A stretch of 33,382 nt of DNA from positions 1 through 33,382 of IMG/VR virus record IMGVR_UViG_3300029787_000186; one strand, 5' to 3'. Below are positions 235-33,382 of this stretch, one piece after another. Source of the DNA: a virus. How positions within the stretch are numbered: position 1 is the first letter of the stretch; each line of letters begins with the position of its first letter. The notes beneath the pieces are model-generated. The model was not told where the DNA came from, made no database searches, and was given only the letters and a program-made list of their open reading frames with translations. Both the position numbers and the translations under genes were made by a program.

Positions 235-406
235 AACTCACAAAATTGCTATAGTGTCTTTCAACGAATCTTTTCTTCTTATCACTTATACTTCTATCAT
301 AGACTATTGATTCCCAACAGTGACCACAACTTTTACAATAGAAGATCTTTTCGTCTGCTGCTCTAGCATCATTACTAGAATGATTTGCTCTTTTTTCACA
401 ATGCAT
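191..406 (-). CDS. Small zinc-ribbon-like protein, 71 aa
   Basis: A short protein with two CxxC pairs (C24/C27, with C30 nearby, and C65/C68) separated by a basic, hydrophilic stretch. This is the spacing of a zinc ribbon, so it probably binds one zinc ion. Many phage proteins of this kind bind DNA or a protein partner, but nothing here identifies the partner. Its start overlaps the end of the upstream beta-class methyltransferase by 11 bases, and its end overlaps the start of the C5 methyltransferase by 44 bases. It therefore sits between two DNA methyltransferase genes and is probably co-translated with them. No closer family was recognised. Confidence 0.6.
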   Translation of the reverse strand: MHCEKRANHSSNDARAADEKIFYCKSCGHCWESIVYDRSISDKKKRFVERHYSNFVSYGKKRKQCSRCATS

Positions 407-1097
407 TTATTACCTCTTGTTTACCAAATAATGTTTTTTGCGATGTATGATTATTAATTCTTTCATAGGCCACATCAACGTATTCTGGATTTAACTCGCT
501 CCCAATCCAATTTTTGCCCAACTTTAAACAAGTCATCGCAGTAGTACCGCTTCCCATAAATGGATCATATACTAAATCGCCTGGAGTGCGTGCTATGAGT
601 GGCAAATACGCTTCTATAGGATCCTGCGCAGGATGCACGCGTAAATTCTTTGGGAAGTTAGATTGTGGATTGACACCAGTAAGTAAATCAAATGTAGATA
701 TACCTCGATGATGAGCATCCATAGAGATTTTACCATTGGGCAAACTCATAGCAATTGGTGTAATAGTTTTAATCCAAGGATTCTTTATGTGCATGGTAGC
801 GCCAAGATTGCGTCTATGATAAAACAACCACTGGCGAAATCCATCTAAAGCATTGTACAAGGTCCACATATGATCCTGCGACATAAATACATAAATAGCA
901 GTTTTGGCCACACGCTCCATTTCTTTACACAACTTAGATAACCAAGCGTCAAAATCGGGTTTATTGTCATCACTATACTCGCCATAATTCTTTTTAGCAT
1001 TCCAAGGCGGTGAAGTAACAATAATATCTACATAGTCATCTGCCATGCGTGCCATAGTATCAAAACAATCTTCGTTATATATCTTATTTAACTGCAT
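396..1097 (-). CDS. Beta-class N4-cytosine/N6-adenine DNA methyltransferase, 233 aa
   Basis: Transfers a methyl group from S-adenosylmethionine to an exocyclic amino group in DNA. The catalytic motif TSPPW is at residues 28-32 and the AdoMet-binding motif DPFMGSGTTA is at 178-187, followed by ELNPEY at 201-206. Catalytic motif before AdoMet motif is the beta-class order. The aromatic residue is W rather than the Y usual in adenine enzymes, which leans towards N4-cytosine but does not prove it. The region between the motifs (about 35-170) should hold the target recognition part. The protein is short but has all core motifs. No restriction partner is adjacent, so an anti-restriction or regulatory role is more likely than a complete restriction system. 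Confidence 0.92.
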   Translation of the reverse strand: MQLNKIYNEDCFDTMARMADDYVDIIVTSPPWNAKKNYGEYSDDNKPDFDAWLSKLCKEMERVAKTAIYVFMSQDHMWTLYNALDGFRQWLFYHRRNLGATMHIKNPWIKTITPIAMSLPNGKISMDAHHRGISTFDLLTGVNPQSNFPKNLRVHPAQDPIEAYLPLIARTPGDLVYDPFMGSGTTAMTCLKLGKNWIGSELNPEYVDVAYERINNHTSQKTLFGKQEVINAL

Positions 1098-1296
1098 CTT
1101 GTATTTGATTAGTTATATCATGCTCTTTACCATTTGTAATTTTGTTGGCAAAAAACACTTTACTGTTCCTTTTTAGTGTGATTAATTCTTTAATCTGAAA
1201 CAAAAAACTTGAGTATGTCTCAGCTTCCACTATCTGATCACACCACTCCCCATCGTAATTATCATATTCTACTGATCCTGCGTAGTTGACTTTCAT
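1084..1296 (-). CDS. Hypothetical protein, 70 aa
   Basis: Not recognised. I chose the ATG at 1294-1296 because it forms an ATGA overlap with the stop codon of the upstream PP-loop gene; the open frame extends eight codons further upstream but those would lie inside that gene. The protein begins MKVNYAGSVEYDNYDGEW and is mixed alpha/beta in appearance, with no cysteine pairs or membrane segment. Its end overlaps the start of the beta-class methyltransferase by 14 bases. Position between a PP-loop enzyme and a DNA methyltransferase suggests a link with DNA modification, but that is context only. Confidence 0.65.
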   Translation of the reverse strand: MKVNYAGSVEYDNYDGEWCDQIVEAETYSSFLFQIKELITLKRNSKVFFANKITNGKEHDITNQIQDAVK

Positions 1297-2069
1297 AATC
1301 CGCAGTAGCCTTCTTCGCACATAAAGAGTTCTTGTTGATCTACAAATTCAACTTCATCTATAGGTTTGCAGCTTCTATGTAAATAAATCTTCTCACTACT
1401 TCCTTTTTTACTTGAGTCGCGTATGGCCTTGTCAACTTTGACAACTTTATCCCACTCTTGTGGTAGTTTTTCTTTTAATTCTTCCCATTGACGATCGCCA
1501 TGATAAGGACAAAACACACACGATGATTTTGGCGGTTCTGGAAACAACAATTCTTTATATAGATTTTTACAATCACTGCGAGACATCCTTATATCAATAA
1601 GTGGATAGTAATAATCAATTCTCGGCAGCATAGATACTTTCATGCGTTGTATCTCATCCATAGTAATGCCTAGCCAAACTTGTGTTTTTGGCATACGCTT
1701 ATGTTTTTTTAAACCGTACAAATCGCGTATTTTTTTTACAACTACATCAATCTTATATTCTTTTGTACATTGCCGTCTAAGCATTCCGCGACCTTCATCA
1801 CTAAATGCAGGTATACTAGCAAAGCGTTGGCCAGTTGAATTTTGTTGATTTAATAAATCTTTATATAAACTTTTTTTAACTACATGAATAGGTATGCCAT
1901 TGTTATACTTCGCCCAATCTTCTAAGTATTCTAATATTTCATATGTGCGCGGTAATTCTGCACCAGGATCAGCAAATATTGCATGGTCTGCGCGATCTAT
2001 GCGACCAAGTGAACTCATTAAATACATAGCAGTTGACTGCACACCTAATCCTAGTGAAATAATCTTCAC
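1293..2069 (-). CDS. PP-loop (PAPS reductase / adenine nucleotide alpha-hydrolase-like) protein, 258 aa
   Basis: An N-terminal PP-loop signature, SLGLGVQST (residues 5-13), binds ATP or a related nucleotide, as in PAPS reductases, DndC-type and tRNA-thiolation enzymes. A later CVFC pair at C184/C187 followed by H190, with C101 and C167 upstream, could hold a metal or an Fe-S cluster. The substrate is unknown. I chose the GTG at 2067-2069: it gives the family-typical beginning MKIISLGLG and a GTGA overlap with the upstream gene. The longer ATG start at 2102 would add eleven residues overlapping that gene. Phage members of this family are often annotated as PAPS reductases, but no sulfate-assimilation gene is nearby. 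Grouping with methyltransferases and nucleases hints at DNA modification. Confidence 0.88.
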   Translation of the reverse strand: MKIISLGLGVQSTAMYLMSSLGRIDRADHAIFADPGAELPRTYEILEYLEDWAKYNNGIPIHVVKKSLYKDLLNQQNSTGQRFASIPAFSDEGRGMLRRQCTKEYKIDVVVKKIRDLYGLKKHKRMPKTQVWLGITMDEIQRMKVSMLPRIDYYYPLIDIRMSRSDCKNLYKELLFPEPPKSSCVFCPYHGDRQWEELKEKLPQEWDKVVKVDKAIRDSSKKGSSEKIYLHRSCKPIDEVEFVDQQELFMCEEGYCGL

Positions 2070-2458
2070 GAAACTGGAAACTCCATATACTGGTAAAACC
2101 ATTTACGCTTTTCATTTTGTGAATTTCTAGCGCGATGTATTGCAAGTGTGATATGATTCTCATTATTATATCTAACGTAGGCCACTTTCTCTAGTGGCGC
2201 GAAATACACTGCAATCACATCTACAGACTGCTTATCTATATATTTGTGTAGTTTTATCTCAATACTGCTTTTGGTCTTATAAGTCATTACAGTTTTTACC
2301 TGGACACGGTGCAGTTTCCCATTAGATTCAACCAACATATCTACATTTGCGTCATCGCAGACTGGCACATATACATTTAAATCTTGATTTAACAGATCTT
2401 CAATAACGCGATTCTCACCAATAATGCCTTTACGGACAGTTGTCAGATCTTCTCTCAT
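2066..2458 (-). CDS. PD-(D/E)XK endonuclease-like protein, 130 aa
   Basis: Resembles the small PD-(D/E)XK family that includes group I intron-associated endonucleases. An early acidic residue is E15 (in GEN). The second is D40 in NVDMLV, and the catalytic QxK is Q53/K55 in RVQVKT. The segments YVPVCDD and VDVIAVYF are typical of this fold. It probably cleaves or binds DNA using a divalent metal. It is in a run of overlapping genes: it overlaps the upstream gene by four bases (ATGA) and the PP-loop gene by four bases (GTGA). No intron or homing target is visible around it. It might act as a resolvase or repair nuclease instead. Confidence 0.8.
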   Translation of the reverse strand: MREDLTTVRKGIIGENRVIEDLLNQDLNVYVPVCDDANVDMLVESNGKLHRVQVKTVMTYKTKSSIEIKLHKYIDKQSVDVIAVYFAPLEKVAYVRYNNENHITLAIHRARNSQNEKRKWFYQYMEFPVS

Positions 2459-32497: not shown

Positions 32498-33382
32498 CTA
32501 ATTAAATGTTTTAGCATTTTTGCGGGCAATGTATTTAAATATTTCATACGCACACTGTGGCACTATTGCGTTTCCCAGTCCTTTAAGTCGGTCCACCCGA
32601 TTGGGTATCCCATTAGCCACTCTACCCAGTTCGGGTTCAGTGTGCCACCAACTCCCGCTTCTGGCTCTACTCTGAAATCCAGTCTGTTTGTCGGATCTTC
32701 TGATCTTTTGTGGTTCTTGCTCCATCCTTTGTGATCGCTTTTTGTTGGAGTCGGAAACATTTTCTTTACAACTGATTCCATCAATTGACCTTGTTCTCTG
32801 TTTCTGTCTTTGCGATTTAATAATTTTAGTGTTGCTTCGACTGTCTGTGAAATTGTAACTGGACTTGCGTTTGGAGTCGGAAATTTCTTGTGAGTGCGCC
32901 ACAATCCAGATACGTTTGCGGTTGTGCCACGCTCCAACATCGGCAGCCGATACAATAGTCCACGACGCATCATACCCGATTTCGGTAAGATCTGCAATGA
33001 CTCTGACTCCTCCTCGAACAGTGAGCATTGGAACATTTTCAATGAGTGCGTATCTTGGTCGTACTTCGCTAATGACTCTAAGCATTTCAAACCAAAGACC
33101 GGATCGTGTTGTTTCTCCAGTTTCTTCATTGATTAACGACTTCCCGCGACCTGCAATAGAAATATCCTGGCAAGGAAATCCACCAGTAATGATGTCAATA
33201 TTTTTGAACTGATTTCCATCCAGTGTCGTAATATCTTTATATATTGGTACACCGGGGAAATTTTTATTAAGCACTTTGTGGCAATAGGTATCAATCTCAC
33301 AAAAGCCAACGATGTCAAGCTCGTCGCCCCACACCCACGATGCTGCCAGTGAGAATCCACCAATACCGCTAAATAAATCAAG
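32498..33382 (-). CDS. C5 cytosine DNA methyltransferase (main part; start lies at 234 of the left end)
   Basis: Methylates carbon 5 of cytosine. In the 307-residue closed protein: motif I DLFSGIGGF (15-23), catalytic motif IV GFPCQ with C84, motif VI ENV (128-130), motif VIII-like NRKRIW (about 167-172) and motif X GNAIVP (283-288). Between motifs VIII and X the sequence is short and rich in Lys, Arg, Ser, Gln (target recognition part), ending WWHTEPELGRVANGIPNRVDRL. No nuclease is paired with it. The segment 32563-33129 carries a second open frame, described separately. The gene is intact across the circle junction. Confidence 0.93.
   Translation of the reverse strand, partial: LDLFSGIGGFSLAASWVWGDELDIVGFCEIDTYCHKVLNKNFPGVPIYKDITTLDGNQFKNIDIITGGFPCQDISIAGRGKSLINEETGETTRSGLWFEMLRVISEVRPRYALIENVPMLTVRGGVRVIADLTEIGYDASWTIVSAADVGAWHNRKRIWIVAHSQEISDSKRKSSYNFTDSRSNTKIIKSQRQKQRTRSIDGISCKENVSDSNKKRSQRMEQEPQKIRRSDKQTGFQSRARSGSWWHTEPELGRVANGIPNRVDRLKGLGNAIVPQCAYEIFKYIARKNAKTFN
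32563..33129 (-). CDS. Overlapping alternate-frame ORF inside the C5 methyltransferase gene, 188 aa
   Basis: A complete frame on the same strand, one base out of phase with the methyltransferase, covering its residues about 98-286. It reads like a protein: SLFEEESESLQILPKSGMMR, then RGLLYRLPML, KFPTPNASPVT, MFPTPTKSDHKG and an ending GGTLNPNWVEWLMGYPIGWT. The SGMM, PTPTxSDxKG and WVEWLMGYPxGWTDL patterns are ones I know from phage proteins often annotated as methyltransferase-related. The stop codon lies inside the motif X codons of the main gene. ATG at 33127-33129 has GGGAAG about 11 bases upstream. It may be a real dual-coded protein or a footprint of an ancestral frame. Confidence 0.5.
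   Translation of the reverse strand: MKKLEKQHDPVFGLKCLESLAKYDQDTHSLKMFQCSLFEEESESLQILPKSGMMRRGLLYRLPMLERGTTANVSGLWRTHKKFPTPNASPVTISQTVEATLKLLNRKDRNREQGQLMESVVKKMFPTPTKSDHKGWSKNHKRSEDPTNRLDFRVEPEAGVGGTLNPNWVEWLMGYPIGWTDLKDWETQ
33188..33382. repeat. Terminal redundancy, right copy (pairs with 1-195)
   Basis: Direct repeat of bases 1-195 with five mismatches. It contains methyltransferase codons; the differences give one amino-acid change (Thr here, Lys in the left copy) and otherwise silent or edge changes. It supports wrapping of a circular genome map. Confidence 0.9.

Follow-up and report, generated by a model that had tools for sequence, protein, structure and literature searches.

The question raised by this locus is whether a phage gene for a C5-cytosine DNA methyltransferase (MTase) also encodes, in another frame, a second protein, and what that protein would do. 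In the window, that is, the whole 33,382-nucleotide stretch of DNA that was analysed, a 188-codon open reading frame (32563-33129, minus strand) lies wholly inside the MTase frame (32498-33382, minus strand) in phase +1, just as the original prediction had described, and the peptides quoted there are present in both frames. The analyses below confirm that the nested frame is real and not the product of chance, and it very probably encodes the DNA-recognition subunit of the same methylating enzyme. Our main reading, to which we assign a probability of about 0.88, is that the locus specifies a two-subunit C5-cytosine DNA methyltransferase, with an alpha subunit and a nested beta subunit both derived from one stretch of DNA. 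The features on which the argument rests are listed here, the residues of alpha being counted throughout from window base 33382.

32498-33382, minus strand: C5-cytosine MTase frame (alpha subunit), 294 codons within the window and incomplete at the contig end
1-234, minus strand: start of alpha; from the ATG at 234-232 come 13 further codons (MVKKENSVVGVRL), so that alpha totals 307 aa
32879-33382, minus strand: alpha catalytic domain, motifs I-VIII, with PCQ at 33167-33175, ENV and RKR; predicted C5 MTase large domain
32651-32878, minus strand: alpha linker, its DNA common with the beta recognition region; predicted to be disordered (pLDDT about 40) and weakly conserved as protein
32498-32587, minus strand: alpha motif X and C-terminal helix (LKGLGNAIVPQ...)
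32563-33129, minus strand: beta subunit, 188 aa, with an ATG start, nested in alpha in the +1 frame
32905-33099, minus strand: beta core (VFGLKCLESLAKYD...LPKSGMMRRGLLYRLPMLER), over alpha motifs V-VIII, with conservation in both frames
32650-32904, minus strand: beta recognition region, with FPTP / FPTPTKSD modules; the conserved frame is that of beta
32584-32646, minus strand: beta motif IX (GTLNPNWVEWLMGYPIGWTDL), over the run-up of alpha to motif X

The window repeats its first 195 bases (1-195) at its other end (33188-33382) with 97.4% identity. Since the two ends repeat each other, the alpha gene could be joined across them into a gene of 307 codons, and what was recorded is probably an entire genome (circular or terminally redundant, with a small number of variant bases) that was cut within the MTase gene. 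Once the ends are joined, a second DNA methyltransferase gene (396-1097, minus strand; PHROG 67, E 4e-39) is found directly upstream of the nested MTase, and a phosphoadenosine phosphosulfate reductase-like gene (1293-2102, minus strand; PHROG 424, E 1e-42), a candidate for an auxiliary or DNA-modification role, lies near the methylases. No restriction enzyme was identified among the scanned neighbours of the locus. At the beta start, a TAA is located two codons 5' of the ATG, the ATG is preceded by a weak Shine-Dalgarno-like sequence (GGGAAG), and the start codon is conserved in some relatives only.

Alpha belongs to the C5-cytosine DNA methyltransferases, as it matches Pfam PF00145 (E 1.1e-43, with the match limited to residues 1-228) and has the catalytic domain with its PCQ, ENV and RxR motifs, in which P70, C71, E115, N116, R155 and R157 are invariant; it also matches PHROG 363 (E 2.6e-78). 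AlphaFold modelled alpha residues 1-168 mostly well as a C5 large domain, and a fold search of the PDB with the alpha model gave M.HaeIII (1dct) and M.HhaI as the best matches. Residues 169-271 were mostly predicted with a pLDDT below 50 and were followed by an ordered motif X helix. The beta frame was matched by PHROG 1008 ('DNA methyltransferase', E=1e-19), which bears out the earlier impression that its patterns resemble those of stand-alone phage proteins. When beta was modelled alone the pLDDT was 55.9 with no confident fold, and no match to the PDB was obtained either in a profile/sequence search with beta or in a fold search with its lone model. The poor model of lone beta would fit a subunit that folds on its partner, without proving so.

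Over the overlap in the window the +1 frame contains no stops. When the synonymous codons of alpha were shuffled 500 times, a mean of 3.9 stops was obtained and the +1 frame was open over the overlap in 0 of the 500 shuffles. Across 24 relatives, chosen as representatives each more than 30% diverged in DNA upstream of the overlap, only 3 real stops were found in +1 against about 92 expected from synonymous shuffles. Similarly, a larger set of 106 relatives (35 + 71 representatives) had 6 stops in +1 against 281 expected between the beta start and motif VIII, and 1 against 122 in the block of the target-recognition domain (TRD). Upstream of beta the pooled +1 stops were near chance (206 against 247 expected); one group of the larger set had zero stops there, which carries no weight since that group was picked for its open upstream frame. 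The zero alpha-frame stops in the TRD were likewise excluded as evidence, since the loci had been selected for an intact alpha.

The reduced synonymous variation looked for in the overlap was also found. In the 24 relatives, the ratio of observed to expected synonymous variation was 0.99 over alpha codons 1-84, before beta, and fell to 0.79 from the beta start to motif VIII, 0.70 in the TRD and 0.30 in motif IX, recovering to 0.86 past motif IX and the overlap. The suppression within the overlap was seen again in two larger groups. Before beta, the differences between relatives sit at alpha codon position 3, and from motif VIII to motif IX they are mostly at beta position 3, which is alpha position 1, across phyla. 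Within motif IX, pairs that were 6-15% diverged differed by 0.034, 0.030 and 0.242 at beta positions 1, 2 and 3, respectively, and an alpha-guided alignment gave the same codon-position pattern. The motif IX stretch (32584-32646) also holds 10 of the 13 columns that are invariant among 49 beta sequences. Where the beta core lies over alpha motifs V-VIII, conservation is seen in both frames and that of alpha dominates. Both frames are therefore open and selected, and the codon-position pattern shows that selection is handed over to beta at motif VIII and returns to alpha at motif X.

Between motifs VIII and IX the alpha frame drifts and is predicted to be disordered. A module common to the window and two of its relatives (L014 and L024), SQTVxAT...QGxLxExVVxxMxPTP, can be recognised in beta and not in alpha, and in the TRD block the normalised protein similarity was higher for beta than for alpha in 84.5% of 4753 pairs, both being low. 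The selection observed suggests that beta, and not alpha, holds the functional recognition region. The original prediction had offered, as one of its options, that an older target-recognition domain had left the second frame as a relic; this is the wrong way round, since it is beta that is the selected recognition domain and the overlapping part of alpha that is filler.

The arrangement is not confined to the window. When viral contigs were scanned with the protein of the second frame, 206 relatives were obtained, 80 of which were retrieved, and in nearly all of these the alpha match spans the same DNA in the other frame. An unbiased viral scan was performed with alpha residues 1-84 alone, which lie upstream of the overlap in the window, and all 80 of the loci that it yielded keep beta in +1. 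These comprise 74 loci nested with an intact alpha, four that are cut by the contig end and have the beta core, and two (L177 and L188) in which alpha is interrupted. L203 and L244 were at first scored as being without motif IX, which was ruled out as each has a beta with a diverged motif IX. That a second protein is made from this gene, as had been proposed, thus appears strongly supported by frame-specific selection in every readable relative.

The beta profile also picked out 80 loci in genomes of bacteria and archaea, of which 75 were nested. By their record labels these loci are from Pseudomonadota, Spirochaetes, Bacteroidota, Actinomycetota, Bacillota and Planctomycetota, as well as from Verrucomicrobia-type and archaeal bins. 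In an even draw, 21 of 398 species genomes matched in the phylum of Acinetobacter (about 5%, the centre genome being counted), where 18 of the 20 loci retrieved read as nested, and 3 of 299 matched in the phylum of the Bacillota bin holding L099. Searches of E. coli gave four genomes only, with relatives of a nested phage copy, and a plasmid search gave five plasmids; none in either search was identified as M.EcoHK31I. In one further relative (L266) alpha ends after about motif VII, motif X is in +1 and a motif-IX match is in the third frame, so this locus is either frameshifted or differently arranged. Finally, in L001, L018, L020 and similar loci, alpha starts with ATGAATGAG and a +1 ATG is located four bases past the alpha ATG, with +1 open over nearly the whole gene (about 300 codons) and its upstream part little constrained. 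A beta extending up to the alpha start was considered for loci with such starts; we do not claim the upstream stretch as coding, since it is under no clear constraint (0.94-0.96) and its openness is near chance.

The same parts are found in other arrangements. Gp70 of mycobacteriophage Daenerys is one chain of 543 aa in which PTP modules, RLAAAFPEWMMGWPAGWVT and RICGNGVCPQQA come after motifs I-VIII in the same frame; we read these as TRD, IX and X. The alpha profile aligned with gp70 residues 2-188 (hhalign E 5e-44), and PHROG 1008, the family that matches the window beta, matched residues 346-542 (2e-72); direct alignment of beta with gp70 by hhalign covered just one TRD stretch, and the link through PHROG 1008 is the stronger one. 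Gp70 is like the window locus in having the same catalytic domain and the same TRD/IX family, but is a single chain in a single frame with motif X after IX. In TiroTheta9 the same two halves are neighbouring genes, and in Elephantoon (gp85/gp84) and phiBT1 there is a longer +1 overlap with motif X in the second frame. Where relatives have the beta region as a gene apart, this gene carries motif X; in both TiroTheta9 and Elephantoon it is separately annotated with its own start. In Streptomyces phage phiBT1 (L277, about 1254-2300), gene 9.1 is annotated as 'may be inactive', and an unannotated +1 frame at this gene encodes a TRD, motif IX and motif X. A transition series can thus be drawn up among the relatives: the monomer, gene pairs with little overlap, gene pairs that overlap at length, and fully nested genes with X in alpha; the order is by arrangement alone, with no direction of change implied. 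The earlier suggestion that some phages express the region in frame was right in substance, since it is in frame in Daenerys gp70 and a separate gene in TiroTheta9 and Elephantoon.

These relatives also bear on whether beta could be reached by programmed +1 frameshifting from alpha, producing an I-VIII-TRD-IX fusion to which a second shift might add motif X. Such a fusion would place the domains in canonical order on one chain, and 96 of 213 loci have a +1 frame that is open from close to the start of alpha. However, the beta frame is constrained from about 70 codons before motif VIII, a stretch that a shift after VIII would leave untranslated, and the separate genes of TiroTheta9 and Elephantoon, with starts of their own, also argue against frameshifting, which we consider unlikely.

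Readings without a second protein fare worse. The DNA conservation of motif IX is very strong, as might be expected if the bases formed a DNA or RNA element such as an origin or a regulatory or packaging site; this is very improbable given that variation in the TRD and IX tracks the beta codon phase across phyla, with position 3 free and positions 1 and 2 held, and that the same protein region is found in frame within Daenerys gp70. It could also be supposed that alpha is functional alone and that the +1 frame is open through codon composition or as a relic of an old recognition domain. Since about a third of representatives also have +1 open upstream of beta, without clear constraint there, open frames alone are indeed weak evidence, but the scarcity of +1 stops (3 against 92), the confinement of synonymous suppression to the overlap and the conservation of TRD and IX in the beta frame and not in alpha already contradict this explanation, and we give it next to no credence.

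For the two-subunit enzyme we infer separate translation of beta, formation of a heterodimer, methylation activity and a protective role. Alpha, translated from the upstream start, would contribute the domain for AdoMet binding and catalysis (I-VIII), followed by a flexible linker and motif X. Beta would have an internal +1 start of its own and be translated separately, giving the small domain with its core segment, target-recognition region and motif IX. The two may then associate to form one active enzyme that methylates a specific site, and this methylation would probably shield the phage DNA against host restriction.

In public records the nested second gene is mostly absent from annotations. 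A Paenibacillus larvae phage record has both frames annotated; one CDS is annotated across the alpha/beta pair in Acinetobacter ABMM1, Salmonella S9-5 and a Leptospira plasmid, and the locus is annotated as hypothetical in Lacticaseibacillus R9.1 and Pseudomonas phPA-G. Our literature searches found no description of the nested alpha/beta arrangement in phages. It seems reasonably likely that nested alpha/beta enzymes are an ancient and widespread class of C5 MTase whose specificity subunit is often unannotated, that enzymes regarded as 'complete' or 'may be inactive' (phiBT1 9.1) are two-subunit, and that beta modules have been swapped between phages with the second frame kept open as a linker. 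Cloning, annotating or assigning specificity from alpha alone would miss the recognition subunit. Furthermore, two genes overlap here over a long distance on the same strand, and the handover of selection from one frame to the other can be measured; with relatives that are in-frame, split or nested, the origin of long overlaps becomes open to experiment.

Amongst known methylases, the large domain of M.HhaI and M.HaeIII resembles alpha, but these enzymes are single chains with no detectable sequence or fold match to beta; the L-x-P...MGYP pattern of beta motif IX is presumably shared with their canonical motif IX. The AquI-type split methylases are like the window locus in having the catalytic and TRD/IX parts on separate polypeptides, and in the actinophage examples the TRD/IX part is related to the window beta. 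The small subunit of M.AquI carries motifs IX-X (PMC3404938). In the window, in contrast, LKGLGNAIVPQ places motif X in the alpha frame, and beta stops after IX and is entirely nested. The closest layout is that of M.EcoHK31I, an E. coli YGGCCR methylase. Lee, Kam and Shaw are said to have described it in 1995 with an alpha of 309 aa and a beta of 176 aa in an alternative frame within alpha, as against 307 and 188 aa in the window. M.EcoHK31I consists of two polypeptides, the larger with motifs I-VIII, X and a predicted TRD and the smaller with motif IX (PMC3404938). The window locus likewise has a large subunit with I-VIII and X, from whose frame motif IX is missing, and, judging from sequence and selection, motif IX would be in a smaller polypeptide encoded in the other frame within the large gene; the likeness is one of described architecture and not of sequence, and the window locus differs in lying on a phage contig. 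Dual coding on this scale, which the original prediction took to be rare, is not so for the nested MTase family, for which M.EcoHK31I is an experimentally studied precedent. The nested layout was therefore already known from that one bacterial enzyme; what is new is the breadth of the architecture, the evidence for the frame switch and the transition series, by which a one-enzyme curiosity becomes a general architecture.
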